Assembly (NCBI RefSeq): GCF_040954835.1
Contig: NC_090700.1
Span: 22,981,501 to 23,045,500, forward strand
Direction of reading: 5' to 3'
Length of the DNA: 64,000 nucleotides
Origin: Lepisosteus oculatus
Taxonomy: Eukaryota; Chordata; Actinopteri; Semionotiformes; Lepisosteidae
The position numbers and the translations under genes were made by a program. A model generated the notes under the pieces. It saw only the letters and a program-made list of their open reading frames with translations, was not told the DNA's origin and searched no databases. Positions 6,601 through 36,600 of the stretch are shown here, piece after piece. The stretch's first letter is position 1. Every line of letters begins with the position of its first letter.

Positions 6601-9600
6601 CCTTAGACATTTTATAATGTTACAGCATGGACCCACAATGTATTTAACTATGAATTTTTGCCACTCATCAACACAAAGTACTCTATAATGTCAAAGTGAA
6701 AAAAAAAATCCAGACATTTCACTAATTAAAAAAAAATAAAAAAAATAATTAAATGCATAAGTATTCAACCCCCGCTCCCAGAGTTAATACTTGATAAGAC
6801 CACCTTTGGCAGCAATTACAGCTGAGTCTCTTTGGGTAAGTCTCTATCAGAGTTGTACATTCTGCCCATTCTTCTTGGCAAAATTGCTCAAGCTCCATCA
6901 AGTTGGATGGGGACTGTTTGTAAACGGCAATTTTTAAGTCATTCCACAGATGCTCAATTGGATTGAGGTCTGGGCTTTGACTGGGCCACTCCAGGACATT
7001 GACCTTTTTGGTTTTAAGCCCCTCCAGTGTGGCGTTTGCTTTATGTTTTTGGGTCCCTGTCCTGTTGGAAGATGTTTTCCTCCAGGATTTTCTGTAATTA
7101 GCTTCACGCATTTTTCCTTCTATCTTTATGTTTTACTAAGTGGGGAAGCTCCCAGACACAGGTGTATTTATTCTGAAATCATGTGAAACACCTCAACTGC
7201 AAACAGGTGGACTCCAGTCAAGTAATTATGTGACTTGGAGTTGGTTACTTCTCTTTAGGTAATTTAGGTTTGTCAAAGCAAGGGGGTGAATACTTATGCA
7301 TTCAGTTATTTTCTGTTTTTTATTTTTAATTTAGTAAAATGTCTGGATTTTTTTTACTTTGACATTACAGAGTACTTTGTGTTGATGAGTGGCAAAACAT
7401 CTAAGTGAAATCTAAGTTTCATGCTGAAATATAATAAAATGTGAAAAAGTCCAAGGGGGGTGTAGACTTTCTATAGGCACTGTATCTCTCTTTGGAAGAT
7501 GTGAGTATATAATGCAACACCCAGCAAAAACCTACACAAGGAGTAGGGAACATGCAAACTCCTCACAGACAGTCTTCATAAGATGGAATCAAAGACTGGA
7601 CCTGGAGCTAGGAGGTAGTAATGCTAATCTTCATGCCACTATGCTTTATGGTAAGGGTCATTTCATTTTCAATCACAATGCCGCCGCCACCACCTCAGAT
7701 TGCTCTCATAGAGGGAGCTATGATAATCAGTCCTATAACATTATGTTAAGAAACATAGTTTACTCTGTAAAATAAGCTAATTGATAGCACCCAAATTGGA
7801 CAATTTGATCAGGTTGGATTCATAAAATATTCTGTAAAAATACAAAAAATGTCATCAGTGCTTTTAAAATTTACCTTCAAGAGAGAGATTTCAAGATTTT
7901 AATGAAAATTAAAGGAAAACTGAAACTTTCATGAAAACTTAATGACTACCCTCCTTTGTACTATTTTTCTCTTTAGGACATCTTTTATTGGAGTAAGAAG
8001 AGTAGTTTCTTCTCAAAGTCTCTCACCAGTCTCCTCTTCATTAAGACAGTAGTCATATTTTTTTTCTAGTCAGCCTTAAGTCTTTTTGACAAAAAGGTAA
8101 AATAACTCCTCAAAGAGTCACTCTGTCAAAAATATTAGTTTCTTCTTTATTTTCACTTTATGTGGAGTTAGGTTTAGATGGAGTATGGAACAATTAAGAA
8201 AAATAAAAAAACGTCAATGAAAAGGCCCCACAAATGTAGGAAGACAAATGTGCGTGTGAACTGCAGTTTACACAGTTAATTCATAAGATTTAAGTTCTTA
8301 ATGCTGGCATTTATGAAGGTATCTGCAAAAATGAACAAGAATTAATTCAAGATTTAACAGAAATTTGTGTCAATGTGTTACTCCTGATCTGAAGGCTTCA
8401 AAGCCAAAATATTTATTTTTACTTTTCAGCTTGGAACCATCCATTTCTTCAGAGAACTGCAATTCTGGTCCTGGAAAGCCCCAATCCAATTACTTCATTT
8501 TATAGGACACCTTGAAAACCAAGGTCCATCAAGTAAATAATTTAATTATGGAAATTCTGAACCTTGAGTGATGAATGGTCTTTAGAATTTGGCTTCAACT
8601 TATCATTTAATCACTCTAAAAAAATCAACTGTTTAACTGTGAACATAGTTAAACTGTCCAACATTTTTACAAATGGCTTAAAGGCTACCTGTAAAACTAG
8701 CTGGTCAAAGGGCAGGGACCAGAGCTGGAGATACCCTAGTCTACTTCCAGGTGGATGCTGCACATTGGTGGTGGTGGAAGGGAGTCCCCATTACCTCTAA
8801 AGCGCTTTGAGTGGAGTGTCCAGAAAAGCGCTATATAAGTGTAAGCAATTATTATTATTATTATTATTACTTGTTCCTTGAACAAGTACAATATGAGAAT
8901 AGTTAAAATGTTCCTCTAAATTCTCATGTCTCCTTTCAGACATGTATAATAAGTCAAGTAGGTAGCTGCGTCAGCATGGGCAGGCTGCAAAGGAACAAGT
9001 AAAGGTTTATTCCACGCTGAAAAGAGAAGGAAACAAAAGCCTTGACATCAATCGGACGGTAAAATTTCTACTTTGGCGTTATTTTCCAAACTACTTTTGA
9101 ATATTCATAAATACTCAATGTAATGAGTTCTATTCATTAATATTTTTACAGATAGCGACTATTTTTCTTTATTACATTTCAAGACAAGTAATGTTTTGGG
9201 CTATATTAGTGCTTATTAAAACTGTAAACCTCCCCAAAGCGCTAATATTTTTCTTTCACTATGATGATACAGATACAAATCTGCAAGATCTTTTCAAGTT
9301 AATAATCATGTACTGTAGCACGTACAGTACGTGTGGTTTTCACGTTTTATGTAATTAAAATGGATGGCAGTTACCAATAAATTCGTTTACGTATTGAATG
9401 TTAGTGATTAGTGACAGAATCGTAGGTTGTTGTCAAAACTGACAATAAAGATTACAGTACTTTTAATAAAACGTCTCTCACCAGAAGAGCAACATCGACT
9501 GCGGTGAACACGACTCTACAGATAGGGCAAGTGAGATTTCTCCACCCGAACCAAGCCTTCAGTTGAGACAGCGCCTTTCCGGAATCGATGACGTACTCTC

Positions 9601-18600: not shown

Positions 18601-21600
18601 AAACATGTAGAAACTAACTCTCACAAAGTACGGATCCAGTGACCACAGCTTGGTCATAGGAACTGGGCAACACAGGCAAAGACTTGAACTTTCTGCAGCA
18701 CTACTTGAACTTCCCCATAATAACTTTAATAAAATAATAAAAAGGGTGTGGGTCAGTGAAAAGAGAGTGAGTGGGTCAGTGCAGAGAATAGGGATTTACT
18801 CACCATTATGCTCTTGCTGTTAAGATAATGCCGGGGGATCATGGGCTCCAATGTGTGCAGGAAGGCCATCCCACAGGCAATATCAAGCGCAAACTTCACT
18901 GCCTGGGTTTGGTCAACCACAAAGGCTATGGGAGGGATGGAGAGAGCAGGATAGATAAGAAGATCAAAGAGTCTATAGTATGGTTTTATTTTACATTTCT
19001 CTTGTAATGAATGGTGTCCAATTACATGCTGAACATGGATTCAAGTAAGAAGAGGATGCTATATATTTTCAGTTGAGGTAAAATGCAAGATTTTTTAAGC
19101 AACATAATTTAGGAGCAGAGAAAACCTCTGGAAATTGCAACCTCTTGCAATCTGGCAAGTCTGAAGGTTTCTCTGTGGAGCTAAAAACTGTACTTACTTG
19201 TCCCTTCATGCAGCACGTTGTACAGAGAGCCATATGGCATCCAGTGCGTGATTATGATAGGGTGGGGGGCAGGTGGGGACTGGCAGGCTCCCAGCATGGG
19301 CAGGACATTTGGGTGGGAAAATATCCTGGACACAGGACAGGATGGAGAGGGGACACAAAAGTACAGAACAGAGGGCAGGAGGGGAGGCTTCTGTGAGACT
19401 TAAATTTAATCATTTTTCAAACATGATTTAGTTTACATTTATCTTGAGCTGTATGTGTGTGTCAAATGCCACTGCAAGCCTTTCACAATAGTCAGATGGA
19501 GATAGCCCATGCTATTAGCTGTTCTCTGGCACAACCCCTGTGTTAACAGCCTGATAAAAAAAAAATTATCTTCTGTGCAATACTTGTACAGCTCACATCC
19601 TCTTGCTAAACATTAGCAGTTCAGACTCTGCCCAATTGCAGATTGTGTCACTGTAACAGATATTAAGATAAGTCTTTGTGAAACATTTACAAAATAATTA
19701 GCTCCCAGTTTGCTCTAAACAGGGGGACTGGTAGCTCCTTTATTTTATTTGGGGTATAAACGTGTCATATCTAGCATGTCCAGAGGCCGAGAGGAAATAG
19801 AAAGTGTCTTTGCCATATTATGCTTGTGGACACTTGAGGGTACACTACACGTGAGGGTAGCAGCCGAGAGGACCTGCTACAGGAATAAAGAGACAGAGGG
19901 ACAGGGGATCTACCTGTACATGTGCTTCTTGGGATGGGACCTGGCACTGACCACAATGAGGCTGCAAAATTACCTGAGCTTGGGATACTCTTCGTTGAAG
20001 TCCCGACTTTTGCGTGTGGTCCAGTCACGGACTTTGAGCACCTTCACGACAATCTCATTGCCCTGCCAACGGCCCTGCCACAGCTGCAGAAAGAGGTCAT
20101 ATGCATTGCTAGCGCTCTTGAACATCGCAACGGACACAAAATCACACCCATACTGCATCCGCTTGCCCTAGTTAACATCATTTTAGCATGCTCAAATGTC
20201 TTATTGTAGGGATAAGGCCTGTTATTTTACTTTTAATTAATTGTTATTAAAGATTTAAGAGTTTTTGTGTGCACTGACACGTGTGCATGGGCCCCTCTCT
20301 AAATGCAGAGGAATGTAGCCTAGAGGCACCTCTGGTGAGAGACATGGTAAAGCTGCGCCAAAGCCGAACAGTGCAATGATATACAGTGCAGATGGGTTCC
20401 AGCCAGTCAATAGGCTCATTTGGCCACGATCTTAAACTCACAGGGCATGGTCAATTACCCAGAGGAAGATCCAACAATGAGAGATCTGTAGGGTGGGTAC
20501 TAGAACCAAACCTGACAGCATATCAGCCATAATGTGATGTCATACCTTAAAAGCAAGAACATTGTTTTGCTGGTTAACCTAATGGTTTCTAATATCTCCA
20601 ATTTAACCAGCTGTCTGACTTTTCCCAACCACATGACTGCAAGTAGTCCGAGTCAGGACTTTATTTTTCTTTAGGGCGAGAGAGTGAGACAGATAGTACA
20701 GAATTCTGGCCGAGATATTATTTCTGAAATATAAGAAATCTCGTGTTCACTGTTATTTTTACCTGATCACCGAAATTCTACAGTTGGACTCTATTGCTGA
20801 AAATCTATAATAATAATAATTCTAAAAATAATTTACACTTATATAGCGCTTTTCTGGACACTCCACTCAAACCGCTTTACAGGTAATGGGGACTCCCCTC
20901 CACCACCACCAATGTGCAGCATCCACCTGACTGATGCGACGGCAGCCATAGTGCGCCAGAACGCTCACCACACATCAGCGATCAGTGGGGAGGAGAGCAG
21001 AGTAATGAAACCAATTCATAGATAAGGATTATTAGGAGGCCATGACTGGTAAGTGCCAATGGGAAATTTGGCCAGGATGCCAGGGTTACACCCCTACTCT
21101 TTTCGAGAAACGCCCTGGGATTTTTAGTCAGGACCTCGGTTTTACGTCTCATCCGAAGGACGGCGCCAGTTCACAGTATAGTGTCCCCACCACTATACTG
21201 GGGCATTAGGACCCACATGGACCACAGGGTGAGCGCCCCCTGTTGGCCCCATAATCAAGTATATTCTGAACAAAGCTAATGCCGGGGTTTAAAAGAGTTC
21301 CCCTTGTCTACCTTATGGCTGGACCCCAAGAAGATAAACTGTACAGACTGTTTTAAAGTCTGAGAGATGCTACTTTGGCAATGCTGCCTGATTCAATGCA
21401 AACTTCTAAGCAAATCAAGGCAAAATTCTCTCTCTTCTATCTGCATGGGGACCCTCCCAGCACAGAGCTGCTGCCGAGCTGGAATACTGACCAATCCACC
21501 CGTTTTATCAGAGGGAAGTTTTAACTCTTCAAGGACGTCTTCCCACAACGTTCCAAGAAGATTCCATAGCTGAAATATTGTGTTTCTTTTCAGCATGAAA

Positions 21601-24600: not shown

Positions 24601-27600
24601 ACCATCCAAAGTAATGGTCTGTTACATAAGGAATTTTCTTGCCACGCTCTTTACAGTTGAACAGCACCCAATTCTATACTAGCGATGCTGTTTATCATAT
24701 CCTTAATTTTGATTCAGTCTTTACTCTAGTTTCAGAATAAATATGGTAATAAATACTACTGTATTCATCTTGATTTTCAATAATCACTTTGGACCCTGGA
24801 CCAGGCCAAGTAACTGCTACATCAGCCCCCAGGACTCCCCAAGCACTGGCATGCTGTTGGCTGAGTGCCAGCCAAACCTGGGTAAGCATTTGTCTACCAG
24901 GGCTCCCTCAGCTATCAGAGCAGCAGTGACTCCTGTGCCATGGTTTTCTTGCTTTTACTTGTATGGTGGCATCAGGGGAAGCGGTGCCATTCCTCCAGTC
25001 AGCTAACTCTCCTGCAAGGCACGCAGGATGTGAAACACCAGATGTTTGTGACCAGTGGGCTTGTCACAAAACATCTCTCTGGTTGTAAACAAACTGGAAA
25101 TTGTATTGGCTGATTGAAAACTCCACAGTTAAAGGAGCTTGCTTACAGGAGTTGGAGACCTGTGGTAAAGGAAAGATTTCTTCAACATTTTTAAACAGCA
25201 CTTAAAAAATGAATTCAGAGTTCCAGCTTTCCTATCCCTCTGGGGATTAGTGAAGGGCTGTCCTACCTCTGAGGATTTCCCGGAGGTGTGGCTTGGCCTT
25301 GTCCATGGGCATCTCCCCATACTTGTTACAGATGCTTACCTGAGCACCACTATTTACTAAGTCCTGGAGTGAAAACAATGCAGATAAAATGAACTTGAAG
25401 AGAAATACTGACAATATTTTTCCAACAGCATATTAAGAAAGTGAGGATTACAGCTGCCGGAACTATGAGTATGGTTTGCATTCCAGGAATAGACAGAAAA
25501 AGATATGGTGCTTGTAATCACCCTTGCATCAGGCTTAAATTGATGTTAAAAAACAAGGGAAATTCTTTCATTGCTTGACACAGTTTATAACAAAGCAAGA
25601 GACATTTTCAGTAATCTCTTTCTTGAACAAATGCAAACTTCCAACACTCCCATGAATGTTAACCATAATATCATGCAAAATGATAATAATAGCACATAAA
25701 ATACACAGAATAAACAAAGAAATGACAGACCTAACTACGTTTGCATTTAAGCAGAAATTTCCAATGAAATGATAGCAGAAGAAACCCTGTATTAGAAAAA
25801 TAAATCAGTCCCATGGGGCACATGTTGGTCATGGGTCTCCAACCCTCGACCTGCAGTCCTGTTTCTAATGAATGGGTTATACTTTTAAGTCACTGATCAA
25901 TAAAGCAAGTAACCATTTATATTATGAGTGCTGTGGGGTACTCAGATTTCAATCCTAAATTCTCTGAATTACATAATTGAACAAATTACCTACTTAATTG
26001 ATCCTGATTAAGTTGTTCTAGTGTGTAGATATTGATAACCTATTTAAACCCTAGAGGATTTTGTCTTAATCCGCAAGTACAGTTAAAGAATTTTAGAATA
26101 GCAGCACTGGTTTCCAAGCAATGACTATTAATCATAAATCATACTTGCTAACTTATTACTGCTAAACTTATAAAACATTGCTTAACCAGTTAGCAGTGAT
26201 GTCAGTTATACAGATGCAGCCATTCAAAGTACGCGGCACAAACACGTACCGCGGGTAATTGACTACGGCCTCGCGAATCGTTACGCAAAATACCGCAGTA
26301 CGTGATTGGTTGACCGACAGGGGCACCCGTGGTGCGTTGGTGGGTCGTAGAAAGATTTAAATGTCTTTACTATGCCTGTTTTAGTATTGAATATTTGTAT
26401 GGAATTTTACCACTGAAGGGAAATCTTAGTAGTTGAGCAACATACAGTATATGGCTGGACTCGGTACTTTAAAGAAAAAATACACGTCAGTATTCCATTT
26501 CTCCCTAAACATTTGACATCTCTTGGAATGTGTTTTCTTTCTTTTTTTTTTCAGCATGGAATAAACCTATTACTTGATTCTTATGGATGCCCGGTTCCGC
26601 CGGGGATTCCAAAAAAACACATGGAATCGTGTATCTAAGGAAATAGCAGTATAACCTTATTAATACACAAACAGTGGCATGTTACATTATTAATTTGGGT
26701 GTCTCCTCTTGCCAAAAAAATATAAATTGCATTTTGAGTGCGGTTTTTGACTTTTTTAAAATTACAACCCATAAATAAAGCTTTTACTGTTTAGACTTTT
26801 ATTTATTTTAAACTGTATTACAGCAGCACAATGCACAATGCAACGTAAATTGCTATCTTTGTCTTCTGCGTATTAATGTTCATCTCTCTGTCCAGCAAAC
26901 TAACAATAGTAATAATAATGAACTTTATTGTATATGGCGCCTTTAAAGGTGGCTCCTCAAAGCGCTTTACAGGATAACAACAATAATACTGTTAGGCTGG
27001 GCAAACGATTTTTTATTGAAAAAAAGAAATAAAAAATTAGATATAATGATGTGTTCTGGCTTAAACATTAACGAAGAGCATAACGAAGGTCATGAACTTC
27101 ATAAACGATATTAATTTTGATTCTCAAACTTTATTGATAAAACGACCAAACCAGAAAAAGAGAAAAAGAATCAAGAATAACGGACAGCGCGAGCCTGCAT
27201 TCTCTCCTCAACCGTCCACACCACACTTTTCCCTGGGTCAGAGATTAAATAAAACTTCACTCGCACCAAACAAATTTATATTTCTAAATATCACAACATG
27301 ATCGAATTTAAGTCATTTTAATAACATTGCATAGTCACCTATGAGTTACAATATAAACATTTATATTGATTTTATTCGCGTTTTGATTTAAATTGCAAAC
27401 GCGTGTTTAATTATATGTTTTTTGATTCAATCAGACAAATGCAACATAAATTGATATCTTTGTCTTCTAAGTATCTTAATAAACTTTCATCATAGCTTTC
27501 TCCCCATTTAGATTTATTTTTCTTGGGATTTTGGGATCAAACGTGGAAAGATTAGATTGTAATCGTTTTTATTTTTTAAATACATTTTTGAAAAAGTGTG

Positions 27601-30600
27601 ATCTATACTAAAAAGCTGTACACCACCTGCTATAAAAATACATATTGTAATACTTTCGGGTTCAGATAGGACAGACACGAACTCAGACTTGCGGAGTTAA
27701 AGCCTTGATTTTTCTTCTCCTTTACCACCTGCCAGCCCGGCTCTCCCACAAGGAACTATTTACAAGGAAAACGGATACCTCCCCAGACTGTATGCCTGCT
27801 TCACTGTGGGACAGGTGCACTGGTCAGCGGCCTTCCTAAACCCCGCCCTGACCACTTTCACTCCTGTCCTGCCCCTCCCCGGGCACCCCAGCCGGGCGAC
27901 CTTCGGCCTCTGCCTCAGGCGAATGCGCTGCAATATGTTTTAGATATTTAGACCGGCGCGGCACCGAGAGAGAGTCTGCATTTATAACTTAGTTTTTAAA
28001 ATTAGTCAAGCAATATGAAGCATCTCTTTTTACTTTTAAGTCCCTTAATTATCATTAAGCACAGCTTTCTGACCACTTAGACTACTTTTTGATACCATCC
28101 TTAGACAAAGCAGAAACTGGTTGTACTTTCTAATGACATAAAAGTGGAAAGATTACAGATTATCATCTTTAATTTTGTTACGTTATACATTTTAGAAACG
28201 TTTCATCTATACAAACACCACAAAACTATTTTCGATTGTATTTCTGAATGTTATGTTAAACTTACAGTAGTTCACTGTTTTAAATACATCTAATTAAGAA
28301 AGTTAGGTGTTAACAAACTATTAGTAATCAATAATATTGAATTTAGCACTGTAATAAGTTGTTGCAATTTCCCCTGCATCAATATAAATATAAATTTTCA
28401 TTGTTCAAATATACATTAAATCTGACTATCATATAATAAGTTAATACAAAACCAAAGAAAAAACAGGGTAAAATATAATTCAAAATATTTTGCTAACAAT
28501 GTTAACTGTTTATAAATAATAAAATGTATAAACTAAGGAGTAGGATGGCACAGTTCTTAGTATGCTTTTTGTTTTGTTTCTTTTTCATAAATACAAAAGT
28601 AGTACCTGATGTCTCAGTGGCTTTCAAAATTAAATTATGCATGCAAACATGTGAACTGGCCTGTGATACTGGCCATGTAATAAACTATTATTCCACAATG
28701 CAGGGTATTTTAAAGGATAGAGAAAGCACAGAAAACAGGCAGTTAGATTGATCAGATTAGTATGAAAAGCCATTTAGCAAAGAGGGAATGAGAAGAGTGA
28801 CAAACTAGTATACTTTAGATATTATTTTCTGAACCAGGGAAAATCTGATCATGTTTCTCTATAACAATAATAAAAAACTTTATTTTATATATCCCCTTTA
28901 AAAGTGGCATCTCAAAGCAATACAGTAGATGTAAAAACAGTTTGTCTGTCATGCTAATAAAGCACCTTGAATTGAATTTAATTGAGGATGGGGGGTTGGG
29001 AAGGGCGAGCGAGAGAGCACAGAGAATAGATTAGCATAATGTAGAGGAAAACAGTATAGGCATCGTTGATATGAGGACTTTTGAAACCAAATTCCCCAAA
29101 TTTAATATGTGCTTTTCTATATGTATTGTCAATTGATTGTCCATAATATTGCTATTCTAAGCTAGAAGGAGTGCTTCACCCCGCCTGTTGTGGGAAGAGT
29201 TGGCTTATTCCTTCCCTGCCTCACCGAGGGCAGACCCTGCCAGGCCCTCGTCGACACCGGTTCGACCATCACCCTGCCAGGCCTGGTGTCCTGCCGGGCA
29301 CCGAAGCAGCCAGATCCCCAGGGCGCTCACCGTGCACTTTGGAGCTGCCAGGGTTAAACACCCCTTCTACCTTGCCCCAGTCCGTAAGGACTGTATCCTG
29401 GGATTGGACTGGTTGCAGCAAGTGGGTGGTTGCCTTGACCTGGGCGTGATTGACAGGGTGCTGCGCCGGGGGTGGCGGGTGCCCTCCAGCGGCAAGGTCA
29501 GGGAGCAGTTTGTGGTGTCGTGGTCGTCCGTGGGGCAGTTCTCCAAGCATTGCACGGCCAGCCAGAGGCTGCCAAGCAGTGACCTCACCGCTGGAGGGCA
29601 CCTGCCACCTCCGGCGCAGCACCCCGTCCCTCACCTCCAAGGCACAGAGAGCCTTATAGACTTTGGGTAGGGGCAAGCTTATCTCACCGTACTGGCAGTC
29701 AGCTCTGGCACGCTTCCTCTGACACCCGCAGCTCCGACAAGCCAAAGCGACGCCCGCCACTGCCACCTCCGCTTCCCGCTCAAGTCAACCCACACACCTC
29801 TTGCCCCACCCACCGCGAGACTGATTCATTCCCCCCACCCCACCAACTCTCGCCGGCCCAAGTCAAGGCAACCACCCACCTGCTGCAACCAGTCCAACCC
29901 CAGGATACAGTCCTCACGGACTGGGGCAAGGTACTGTAGAAGGGGTGTTTCACCCTCGCAGCCCCAAAGTGCACGGTGAGCGGCCTGGGGGTCCGGCTGC
30001 CTTGGTGCCCAGCAGGACACCAGGCCTGGCAGGGTGATGGTTGAACCGGTGTCGACGAGGGCCTGGCAGGGTCTGCCCTCGATGAAGCAAGGAAGAAATA
30101 AGCCCCGGCTGTGGCCAACAGGCAGGGTGAAGCGCTCCTTCTGGCTTTCCGGAGTGGGGGTACCGTCACTCAAGGGTGGCCTTCCCCCCTTTAGGCCGCC
30201 CCGCTCCTGTTTCCCGACGGCCTCCGGAGTTTCCGGGGCTCCAGCACCCAGCACTCCCGTGCGATGTGCCCCCTCTCCCCACAGCAGTGGCAGATGACCC
30301 GCCGTCATCGCTCCCCCAGCATCGCCGCGCTGGCCGTCTTTTCCTCACCATCTGATTACCCGTGCACCCCTCCGTTGTTGCCCACTGGTCTCCTCGAATA
30401 TGGCATCAGCCTGCTCAGCCAGAGCCAGGGCCTTCTCCAAGAGGACCGGCGCGGCCAGCATCATGTGGCGCTGAACCTCAGTGGGCGCAAGGGCCCAGAG
30501 GAACGCCTGGAGCGCTATCTCCCAGTGGGCCTCCTCCGGGAGAGTAGGGTAACCCTGGCGGGCTAACTAGGCCACGTCTGCGGCCGTTACCTTCACTGTT

Positions 30601-33600
30601 ACCTGGATACCTCTTTATTTAGAACTCACTCTTCCCCTTGCCTGTCTGGCTTCTTTTAATCCTTCTGTGCCCGGATTGCAGCGGGTAAGATGTTTTTCCA
30701 AGAAAAAAAGAGAAATTTCACCAGAGCCTCTTCTCGAGTCTAAATTTTAGTTTAGAACGATTCAAGCAGAATTTTAGATGAAAGGCAGCGACCTTAAATC
30801 AAGCCCAAATCAGAATTGGACCCATTCAGAGCCTACATTACATTTCAGCGTTTAATTCTGAGCAGAAGACCCTCACACCTGAAGAAGGCTTGCGTTTTAC
30901 CGTCTTACCGCTTTCTTTTTCACAGGCCTGGCGGTAGATTTCTAAGATCGTTTCGCCCGTGCAGTGTATTCCTGAAGAACAGGCCACGAAGAAATATTTA
31001 TAATTGAATGTAAAATTCAAAATGGCAATAATACCTTGTAATATGCGCTATAATATAATAATTGCTTACACTTATATAGCGCTTTTCTGGACACTCCACT
31101 CAAAGCGCTTTACAAGTAATGGGGACTCCCCTCCACCACCACCAATGTGCAGCATCCACCTGGATGATGCGACGGCAGCCATAGCGCGCCAGAACGCTCA
31201 CCACACATCAGCTATCAGTGGGGAGGAGAGCAGAGAAATTAAGCCAATTCATAGAGGGGGATTGTTAGGAGGCCATGATTGATAAAGGCTGATGGGAAAT
31301 TTGGCCAGGACACCGGGGTACACCCCTACTCTTTTAGAGAAACGCCCTGGGATTTTTAATGACCACAGAGAGTCAGGACCTCGGTTTTACGTCTCATCCG
31401 AAAGACGGCGCCTGTTTACAGTATAGTGTCCCCGTCACTACACTGGGGCATTAGGACCCACATGAGCCGCAGGGTGAGCGCCTCCTGCTGGCCCCACTAA
31501 CACCTCTTCCAGCAGCAACCTTAGTTTTTCCCAGGAGGTCTCCCATCCAGGTACTGACTAGGCTCACACCTGCTAAGCTTCAGTGGGTTGCCAGTTGTAA
31601 GCTATAATCACGTATTTCAGATGAAGCCTGCTGTATTTGCTTACCCTTCGCTCTTTGGATGGCTTTTCATACTAGTCTGATCAATCTAACTTCCTGTTTT
31701 CTGTGCTTTCTCTATCCTTTAAAATACACTATTATTCCACAAAGCAGGGTATTACATGGCCAGTATCACAGGCCAGTTTACAGGTTTGCATGCATAATTT
31801 AATTCTGAAAGCCACTGAGACATCAGGTACTACTGTTGTATTTATGAAAAAGAAACAAAACAAAAAGCATACTAACAACTGAGCCATTCTTCTCCTTAGT
31901 TAATACATTTTATTATTTATAAACAGTTAACATTGTTAGCAAAATATTTTGAATTATATTTTACCTTGTTTTGTCTTTGGTTTTGTTTTTAACTTATTAT
32001 ATAGTTAAATAGTTATTATATAGTTAAAAGGGTGGATGTTGCACATTGGTGGTGGTGGAGGGGAGTCCCCATTACCTGTATAGCGCTTTGAGTGGAATGC
32101 CCAGAAAAGCGCAATATAAGTGTAAGCAATTATTATTATTATTTTTATTATTATTATATGATTCAGATTTAATGTATAATTGAAAAATGAAAATATATTT
32201 TTACAAGATGTGGGGGAAAGTGCAACAACTTATTACAGAGCATAAACTATTAGTAATCAATAATATTGAATTTAGCAAACACCTAACTTTCTTAATTAGA
32301 TGTATTTAAAACAGTGAACTACTGTAAGTGTAACATAACATTCAGAAATACAATCGAAAATAGTTTTGTGGTGTTTGTATCAATGAAACGTTTCTAAGAT
32401 GTATAACGTAACTAAATTAAAGACGATAATCTGTAATCTCTCGGTGCCGCGCCGGTCTAAATATCTAAAACATATTGCAGCACATTCGCCTGAGGCAGAG
32501 GCCGAAGGGCGCCCGGCTGGGGTGCGCGGGGAGGGGCAGGACAGGAGTGAAAGTGGTCAGGGCGGCGTTTAGGAAGGCACTGACCAGTGCAGCTGTCCCA
32601 CAGTGAAGCGGGCGTACAGTCTGGGGAGGTATCCGTTTTCCTTGTAAATAGTTCCCTGCGGGTGAGCCGGGCTGGCAGGTGGTAAAGGAGAAGAAAAATC
32701 AAGGCTTTAACTTACTTTAACTCCGCAAGTCTGAGTTCTTGTGTCCGTCCTATCCGAATCCGAAAGTATTACAATATGTATTTTTATAGCAGGTGGTGTA
32801 CAGCTTTTTAGTATAGATTACACTTTTTCAAAAATGTATTTAAAAAATAAAAACGATTACAATCTAATCTTTCCACGTTTGATCCCAAGATTCCAAGAAA
32901 AATAAATTTAAACAGGGAGAAAGCTATGCTGAAAGTATATTAAGATACTAAGAAGACAAAGATATCAATTTATGTTGCATTTGTCTGATTGTGAATCAAA
33001 AAACACATATATTTAAACACGCGTTTGGGATCTAAATCAAAACGCAATTTAAATCAATATAAATGTTTGTACTGTAACGCATAGGTGATTATTCATTGTT
33101 ATTAAAATGACTTAAATTAGATCATGTAGGGATATTTAGAAATATACATTTGTTTGGTCCGAGTGAAGTTTTATTTAATCTCTGACCCAGGGAAAAGTCT
33201 GGTGTGGACGGTTGAGGAGAGAATGCAGGCTCGCGCTGTGTCCGTTATTCTTGATTCTTTTTTTTTCTGGTTTGGTCGGACAATTTGCTGGACAGAGAGG
33301 TGAACATTGTTACGCAGAAGACAAAGATAGTGATTTACATTGCATTGTGCATTGAGCTCCTGTAATACAGTTTAAAATAATTTAAAGTCTAAACAGTATC
33401 AGCTTTATTTATGGGTTGTAATTAAAAAAAAGTCAAAAACTGCACTCAAAATGCAATTTAGAGAGACACCCAAATTAATAGGTTTATTCCATGTTGGAAA
33501 AAAAGAAAGAAAACACATTCCATGAGAATCAGCGCTTTTATATAGCGCCTTTAAAGGTGGCTTCTCAAAACGCTTTACAGGATAAAAACAACAATAACAA

Positions 33601-36600
33601 CAACAATATTGTATTTCATTGCACTTTGACAGATCGTCCTTAAATCAATTGTTGATTTAAAGTTTGACAGTAACCCTAACACTAACCCTATTTTATTTTT
33701 TCAAAGAAATGTTTGTTAAAAAAAAAGTCATGGCTCCGGCTGGATTCGAACACCCAACATGTGATGTATAAGTTGAGAACCTAGCCCACAGCGCCACTGG
33801 CAAGATCGCATGATGAGTGTTGAAAAAGCACTACAGAAACAGTATCAACAGACATTGTACAGCGTGTACTATTCTAATGTTGCGGTACATGAATATAATT
33901 ATATCGTTATTAATTTCTTTAGATACGCGATTCCATATTATATTCCCTTTTAATCAAATTCTAAAAGTATGCCTGTTGACTCCGGTATCACGTTAGTTAA
34001 AGACTTCGATGCTTAAAGTGTTTAGGGAGAAATGGAATACTGACGTGTATTGTTTCTTTTAAGTACCGAGACCAGCCATATACTGTATGTTTATGTTCCC
34101 AAATTAATATTGTTTATGGCCTTCACACGCGTTATAGTATACTCCTATTCTTTTTATGCTCAGCTACTAATATTTCCCGTCAGTGGTAAAATTCCATATA
34201 AATATTCAATACTTAAACGGGCACAGTAAATACATTAAATATACATATACATACTGTATACAGTACAGTTTGGATACGGTAATATGTGTATGTTCCTAAA
34301 TCAATCTCTTTTATGAGCATGTGAAAGGCACGGTGAATCGCAGATTCTCAAAAATTACTGTACTTTGCATGATTGGAAACAAATGCGTGTTTGCGATATG
34401 CTGTGGTTGTTACTTTTACAAAGACGGTCAATGAAAAAAAGAATGTGGACCAGGGCAATACTTTGAGTTTACAGCTTGTCCAAGGTCATTCATTATTAAT
34501 ACTATTAGTAATATCTTCGTTAAAGACTTTGATGGCGACAGCTCAAACATGAGAGGTTGAGCTTTATTAGCTCCACCTTGCGGAAATTCCGGATACTACT
34601 ATTTTACTTGTGGTACCACGTGGTATTATTAGGTACTATACGAGAATTTACGGTAACTCGCGGTAGGCTGCGTCAAGCGCACCGCAAAATAATGCGGTAT
34701 CGCCTGCTTGTTTTGAATCGCTGCATCTGTATATGTCACTAGATAAGGAGGGATTTTGGATTATAGGTTCTTTATTCTATCTTTAACACAAACATGATGG
34801 CTTTTGTTGAAGAAGCAAAATTAAGGATAAAACATTTATTTCTACTTGACAGTATAAACACAACCCTCTTGCTAAAACACAGGGTTAAGAGAGGGGAGTT
34901 GTAAGGGTTGCTGCAGTCTGTAATTGTTGCACTCTGTGTCAATCCTGCTGGACATTCCCAATACAATTCTTAAGGCTGCCTTTCTAATGCAAAAAAAAAG
35001 TGCTAAACTACCATTGTTTGCATTATGCCTGCTGCATATTTGTAGAAAAAAAAACAGGTTGCATTTAATCATCATTGATTACATTATTCATCAAAAAGTA
35101 TAACGGCAACTTTGGGTATAAAACATGCAAACTGCTTCTCTTGTCAAAGCAACACAGCCCCAGTCCACATAAAACATAGGACAGAAGTGGAGATTAGCAT
35201 GTGGAGGGTGGACTGACCTCAGCAACAAGGTCCTGACCCCAGAAGCAGGCGTAATGCAGAGGAGTGTTGCCATGCTCATTGGCAGCATTGGTGTCAGCCT
35301 TGCATTGGATTAGCTGGAACAGAAAAAGAGCTGTCACTCACACAGCCACCATACCTCATATATAGTCACTTCCACATTGATGCTGCATTAACTCACTTCA
35401 CCCACCCTCTATACACTATGGATATTTTACTGCTCATTCACTTTTTGATATGTTGTTGTATTAATTAAATAATGGTGGGTATTTAGTGCTATCTCGCTGC
35501 TCTTGGGTCCTTGGGTCAGTTCTGGACTGGAGTCCCTTCTATGTTGAGTTTGCTCCACATATGCTGGCTGCGTTTTGATTGGTGACTCTAAATCGCTCCT
35601 GCCCATGTGCTGTGTTGGACTAATGCACTTTCCAAGGTGTGCTATAACACCGGGAATAAGAACCTTTCTAGCACTGGATGATTAACTTAATATTATAACT
35701 AGTACTAACTGTAAACAAACTGTGCTGTTGTGTAGCCTAATAGCATACAAATGTTATAACTACTGCAGCTGAATTCTGCTGTTTAATACACATGCTGTAT
35801 ATTCTGCCTGCAATTCTATCTTCCCATAAAACAGATGTCAGTACTGACACTAGAGGTTGCACCTCAGTTCCCAGCAGCCTAATTAGACGGTTTGCTTGAC
35901 ACTTGTTTTTTGCTGAAAACAATTAAGGAGATTTTCCAAACCAAGAACTGAAAGGGGAACTACACTGAAATGTCTGTAGTTGTATGGTTGTTTAACCACT
36001 GAGCACTCAGATCTTCTAGGACTACTACACTTTTTACTATAGGAAGTCGTGATCTACAAACTGCAAGGTAATGCCTCTATAGTTCAAGTAGGTAGCTGCA
36101 TCAGCATGCGCAGGCTGCTTCGGGTGTGAAGAAAGCTCCCGAAGAAGGCTCCACAGCCGAAACATTGTGGTTCCTTTCTTCTGTTTTCAGAATGGAATAA
36201 GCCTTCACTTGTTTCTTTAATGCCTGTATAGTACTGATGACACACTGGCAACTGAATGTCGCCAATTGTAATACATGTCAATCTGGAATGGTACAAGTGT
36301 AACCCACCAGTATGAAAGTCTATCTTGGATCTTCCACTCTTTTTAGCAGCATTGCATAAACAATAATTTGATGTTATTTACCTTGCCAACAATGTCACGA
36401 TGACCATGGCTAGCTGCCAGGTGTAGAGGTGTGTCATCGCCTCGGTTCATGACGTTGATCCGCGCCCCTCGCATGATCAGCATGTCCACCACATTGGAAC
36501 GGCCCTCCCGGCAGGCCCAGTGCAGAGGACTGAAACCATGGTCATCTCTGAAACGGGGGAGAGACTGTTACTGCACATAGAGAGCAAGGCAGCATGGGGA

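Follow-up and report, generated by a model that had tools for sequence, protein, structure and literature searches.

Within a window of 64,000 nucleotides from the gar Lepisosteus oculatus (G000:C5:22981501-23045500, in a genome of 1.2 Gb), an intron of the ilk gene carries an 8.5-kb repeat with kilobase-scale inverted arms. This element very probably belongs, as a foldback-shaped non-autonomous copy, to a Tc1/mariner (IS630-Tc1-mariner) family that is present at high copy number in the gar genome. The family is placed in Tc1/mariner because of its TA target-site duplication, its CAG ends, and the helix-turn-helix (HTH) and DDE_3 domains of its transposase. An initial annotation had called the element a non-autonomous transposon of foldback type; its shape and its lack of a transposase are borne out, but the family is Tc1/mariner with a TA target. 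The search of the same genome proposed there turned up other copies, unoccupied sites, and transposase-bearing relatives. Hereafter, L-numbers denote fetched loci of the family and C-numbers denote contigs of gar genome G000; feature coordinates are collected in Table 1.

The outer ends first annotated at 26207 and 34733, TATACAGATGCAGC and GCTGCATCTGTATA, are 22 nt long and 95% complementary. Their position is right, but they include the TA duplication and one more, chance TA on each side: the conserved ends of the family start at CAG, and the preceding TA is the target. Among other copies, TA stands before CAG almost always, and the letters preceding that TA are variable. Eight paired copies were selected solely because their exact ends face one another 0.9-5.3 kb apart; every one of them reads TA/CAG...CTG/TA, with no longer duplication. 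When up to 3 mismatches to the end were allowed, 63 flanks were found, of which 54 were distinct, and these carried TA (51), CA (2), or CT (1). Unoccupied relatives were present among the loci for 10 flanks, and the junction was TA in 6. The window element likewise sits in an AT-rich TA target (...TCAGTTA-TA/CAG...CTG/TA-TATGTCACT), and its terminal repeat pairs at 17 of 18 positions; pairing extends over 28 nt in L069, L071, and L073. Both hallmarks of Tc1/mariner elements, a TA target-site duplication and inverted repeats at the termini where the element is cut, are thus present.

A 7-bp target-site duplication, TGTCAGT/TGTCACT, had been proposed initially, and a duplication of 7 to 9 bp would suit a Galileo/P-like or Mutator-like foldback element. 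These strings adjoin the ends and agree at 6 of 7 positions, a match found in 0.76% of 20,000 random pairs (four offsets), and kilobase-scale arms, a loop, and variable sizes are also features of that kind of element. However, the other 8 paired copies agree at no more than 4 of 7 positions and none has identical flanks of 7-9 bp, the duplication is TA in paired copies as well as in unoccupied relatives, and the family enzyme belongs to Tc1/mariner. The 7-bp duplication was therefore rejected; the 7- to 8-bp duplication of Galileo/P-type elements is absent, and an element of this kind is extremely unlikely. An ISL2EU-type (PHIS) element would also make a 2-bp duplication and is just as unlikely: ISL2EU duplicates AT within AATT (PMC4482050), whereas the gar family flanks have TA without that frame, and the family enzyme matches DDE_3.

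The exact 18-bp end occurs 10,277 times in the genome, a number that counts exact ends and misses diverged ones, and a reversed-pattern control gave no match on either strand (0 + 0). The first 100 of these ends all lie on C1; among them, plus and minus ends adjoin each other within 12 kb in 29 pairs, which span 0.9-10.8 kb. Copies can be short: L076 has 898 bp between its 20-nt ends, with an inverted block of 79 columns, paired ends, and TA flanks. For comparison, DNA transposons are given as 3.72% and Tc1-IS630-Pogo elements as 2.65% of the longnose gar genome (PMC10320754). With arm segment 27184-27678 as query, 40 matches were scored, and 14 of them lie on the 60.0-Mb contig C14, which accounts for 5% of the assembly; several of these share flanks, and the build-up stems partly from duplication of larger stretches.

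The element itself encodes no recognizable transposase, as the initial annotation had noted: tblastn with P0001, a 399-residue L. oculatus protein whose residues 131-399 are 100% identical at C12:27308512-27309318, gives a single weak match in the window, outside the element at 6851-7042. That match is a separate Tc1-like fragment with 38% identity to P0001. In the family, a Tc1-like open frame was found in L044 after already-seen sequence had been masked, and its DNA recurs, complete or partial, in 14 further family loci. The product of L063:188-1069 matches DDE_3 (3.9e-14) and HTH_Tnp_Tc3_2 (1.2e-5, below the Pfam cut-off), and its best relative in PDB is Sleeping Beauty (2e-16). In all six loci inspected, an HTH exon lies upstream, and a 90-94-nt intron with gt...ag borders stands between it and the second exon; with this intron removed, TIQ is followed directly by SPIVRAID, the arrangement seen in P0001. 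The HTH plus DDE transposase typical of Tc1/mariner is hence found in the family, not in the window copy. For the second exon, the genome offered 5,965 candidates, of which 142 were scored as matches; among the first 46 rows, 34 are without a stop, six of these being on C14 with one identical score.

Two transposase-bearing copies could be read whole. C8:32052375-32058954 (6,580 bp, transposase residues 3-396) and C1:36545208-36551285 (6,078 bp, residues 1-398) both have family ends with TA on both sides. The C8 element contains inverted blocks of 176, 65, 420, and 81 columns (742 in all, 88-95%), and the C1 element contains one of 492 columns (87%). Both resemble the window copy in carrying an R-type stretch near one end and an L-type stretch near the opposite end. 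Other candidate partners were rejected. A pogo/Tigger transposase (PF03184) has 28 genome matches, and the sole one near a family end (L081) lies outside the element. An open 350-codon frame for a Sleeping Beauty-like Tc1 transposase adjoins family sequence at L023:2009-3457; the left end of this intact Tc1 is of the CAGTGCCTTGCGAAAG type and its right end lies beyond the locus. A further open frame of 141 codons (141 aa) at L070:2667-3089 consists of DNA common to several family copies, L086 and the C1 element included; it has no Pfam match and may be captured or accessory sequence.

The spacing between the second D and the E of the catalytic triad is 32 residues in P0001, which has Y in place of the second D. 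Membership in DD34E/Tc1, with 34 residues, was therefore rejected. Among the 120 relatives listed of 649 found (P0001 included), the spacing is 32 residues in 31 and 34 in 89, and 23 of the 31 keep the D and the E. In a tree of the 112 long-enough relatives, the 32-spaced proteins lie in one part, which includes four 34-spaced ones; the spacing needs two changes on this tree, and none of 500 shuffles gave a number as low. The 32-spaced group comes from fishes (gar, bichir, zebrafish, croaker, and others) and one Xenopus, and it includes zebrafish si:dkey-77f5.3. The term DD32E was not found in the literature searched, which did not cover Repbase or Dfam, where the family may be named. Nor did these searches, with the same scope, return a foldback-shaped DD32E Tc1/mariner family.

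The inverted arms that had been annotated are confirmed: in a strict colinear chain they are 92.1% identical over 1,633 aligned columns, with mismatches in 6.0% of aligned pairs, and a further block of 308 columns (87.7% identity) lies outside the chain. This long-armed arrangement around a loop is that of the descriptive class Foldback. The L-type end (26229-26354) is private to the left side and the R-type end (34241-34711) to the right, and blastn found no likeness between the two. Therefore the arm pairing is not continuous: the first 18-22 nt pair, a private subterminal stretch follows on each side, and pairing then resumes. Arm sequence up to 28942 adjoins the transposase gene in L044, L063, L040, L041, L067, and L068. 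In the window copy, the interior is instead occupied by a Ty3/gypsy-like fragment, which carries its own inverted repeat (29159-29445 / 29856-30147, 88%) and has Pfam matches to gag-asp_proteas (0.0045) and RVP (0.014). Its junction with family sequence near 30906 is crossed in 9 of 40 scored places, the window included, two of which (L078 and L079) are near-duplicates. Internal copies of the end, as in inverted repeat/direct repeat (IR/DR) elements, were rejected: a search with up to 5 mismatches within the element returned both ends and one match at 29880 (5 mismatches).

The origin of the window copy can be approached through its closest counterparts. C13:35276535-35285035 (8,501 bp) has the window arrangement reversed: R end, arm, loop (31054-29808), arm, and L end. 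This copy retains transposase residues 3-51 (49 codons, in two pieces by tblastn) together with DNA from upstream of the transposase gene; tblastn found no transposase remnant in the window copy. L080, on C15, is colinear over 28706-28942, 28998-31054, and 31601-31659. The gypsy-like loop occurs, complete or partial, on C15 (L080), C2 (L048), and C18 (L078 and L079, 98.7% alike). In a tree of segment 27225-27703 (33 rows, with the single C13 arm long enough for inclusion), the window left arm is sister to the matching C13 arm (95/87), and a single branch setting the two window arms apart from the rows of C13 and C8 appears in 0% of 200 bootstraps. Since C13 shares ends, arms, and loop and L080 keeps both inner arm-loop junctions, the foldback shape was probably inherited; internal loss probably gave rise to this form, which then probably moved as one unit.

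The initial annotation had offered, as an alternative, two copies fused tail to tail. Such a fusion at the window locus, or an inversion in the assembly, would make the palindrome private to this site. It would fit L045, where the loop is reversed relative to the R end and an R-type end lies on the 28945 side, so that arms recombine or join in several ways, and it would fit the weak sister relation of the window arms in segment 28431-28773. The same arrangement of L045 would be expected from recombination between arms. Fusion is largely refuted by C13, with its L end, arm, loop, arm, and R end, and is further opposed by the inner junctions of L080; it is also not needed, because both whole transposase-bearing copies already have inverted arms and are foldback-shaped. 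It is accordingly very unlikely, and inheritance of the foldback form as a unit is preferred.

Several observations weigh against the reading of the element as a mobile, inherited Tc1/mariner derivative. The tree of segment 28431-28773 (29 rows) weakly groups the two window arms as sisters (83/76), and 87% of bootstraps have one branch between them and the rows of C13 and C8; this pattern possibly reflects local arm-to-arm conversion, as opposed to pure inheritance as a unit. Four of the 10 flanks with an unoccupied relative give no evidence of TA, two of them (one insertion in two duplicates) having CA in both states and two being uninformative, and the right end of the C13 copy is altered where TA is expected. 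Many copies share flanks (L003/L004; L014/L035/L038; L020/L024/L026; L021/L028/L029; L015/L023) and arose by duplication of larger stretches; therefore the end count overstates the number of independent transposition events. Among the copies examined, none is proven to have both transposase exons undamaged: the second exons of both whole copies contain stops (TGA and TAA in C8, TGA in C1), and P0001 and some other copies are substituted at a catalytic position. The gypsy assignment is based on matches below the Pfam cut-off and a motif spotted by eye. Finally, for every copy, movement is deduced from sequence.

On the preferred reading, the element would have moved by cut-and-paste, with cleavage at CAG/CTG by the transposase of relatives (trans-mobilization), and would have inserted into the AT-rich site TTA-TA-TATG of the ilk intron. 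It may descend from a long-armed element that carried a transposase gene; the coding interior would then have been lost, and replaced or invaded by the gypsy-like gag/protease fragment. That fragment would have entered once and multiplied along with the family. The arms are probably inherited passengers that movement does not require, because L076, with its short inverted block, has paired ends and TA flanks.

Known Tc1-like DD34E elements have CAG-type ends, and a typical Tc1 element measures about 1.6 kb. The gar family resembles elements such as Sleeping Beauty, Tcb1, and Tc3 in its TA duplication and in combining HTH with DDE_3. It differs in its spacing of 32 instead of 34, in the one intron of its gene, and in the size (6-8.5 kb) and long composite arms of its whole elements; the window element also lacks a close internal copy of its end. 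DD32E proteins (zebrafish si:dkey-77f5.3, a Larimichthys protein, and a Polypterus 'TCB1 transposase') share the spacing of P0001 and fall with it in a supported group, a comparison made at the level of proteins. Foldback elements have mostly been linked to P and Mutator transposases. Galileo, Foldback, and Tm1 have target duplications longer than TA, of 7 to 8 bp in the Galileo/P type. Galileo and Foldback of Drosophila and Tm1 of a nematode share the long-armed architecture of the gar element, but Galileo is assigned to the P-element superfamily and Tm1 is called Mutator/Foldback, whereas the gar family is Tc1/mariner. Among Tc1/mariner-related elements, Tec1 of Euplotes and Tc6 of C. elegans combine long inverted repeats with TA; these repeats are near 0.7 kb, and are not composite, kilobase-scale arms around a fish DD32E gene.

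The placement of the element in an ilk intron, proposed initially, is upheld by tblastn with a human ILK sequence, which located the flanking exons (Table 1). The intron between them is 9.85 kb long, and the element occupies 8.5 kb of it. The later nested repeat insertion is missing from L078, L079, L080, and the C1 element; relatives of this repeat lie in the window near 20833, 45969, and 56230. Each arm holds a short repeat (26529-26580 and 33473-33517), which recurs in the window near 8993, 55980, 56750, 57017, and 58019 and in many loci, sometimes as an inverted pair. No Rfam family reached the gathering threshold in 25500-35500, no tRNA gene was found across the window, and the only tandem repeat in 26000-35000 is a 29-bp ATT run.

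Table 1. Features of the element and its surroundings (window positions).
Feature	Coordinates	Strand	Basis
Transposon CAG...CTG, 8,519 bp	26211..34729	.	18-bp end at 26211 (0 mismatches) and at 34729 (1 mismatch)
Terminal inverted repeat, left: CAGATGCAGCCATTCAAA	26211..26228	+	5,109 + 5,168 exact genome matches
Terminal inverted repeat, right, 1 mismatch	34712..34729	-	comparison with 18-bp end
TA target-site duplication, left	26209..26210	.	paired copies and unoccupied relatives
TA target-site duplication, right	34730..34731	.	paired copies and unoccupied relatives
Left arm, blocks homologous to right arm	26355..28773	+	
Right arm, inverted copy of left arm	31659..34240	-	
Family-derived inner sequence, left of loop	28774..29158	.	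transposase loci and L080 colinearity
Ty3/gypsy-like gag-protease fragment	29159..30906	-	weak Pfam matches and motif
Family-derived inner sequence, right of loop	30907..31054	.	joins 31601-31659 in copies without nested insertion
Later nested repeat insertion, 546 bp	31055..31600	.	perfect 8-bp duplication GCTATAAT, 31047-31054 / 31601-31608
Fragment of the same interspersed repeat as 31055-31600, in right arm	32031..32152	.	
ilk exon encoding about residues 117-152; follows the intron with the element	25259..25366	-	tblastn
ilk exon encoding about residues 85-117; precedes the intron with the element	35218..35316	-	tblastn

For the gar, the element suggests how the ilk intron may have been enlarged, from about 1.3 to 9.9 kb if the insertion is subtracted. 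For Tc1/mariner, the analysis draws attention to a fish group of DD32E transposases for which no name was found in the literature searched. The evidence leans modestly towards a vertebrate lineage that is foldback-shaped by constitution, with an intron-bearing DD32E gene between kilobase-scale arms, and in which internal replacement, here by gypsy-like sequence, gives rise to giant hairpin derivatives, each moving as a unit. In a numerous Tc1/mariner foldback family whose enzyme genes and short derivatives share a genome, the costs and benefits of long arms become addressable, and arm-to-arm conversion and the capture of foreign sequence in the loop can be asked about too.

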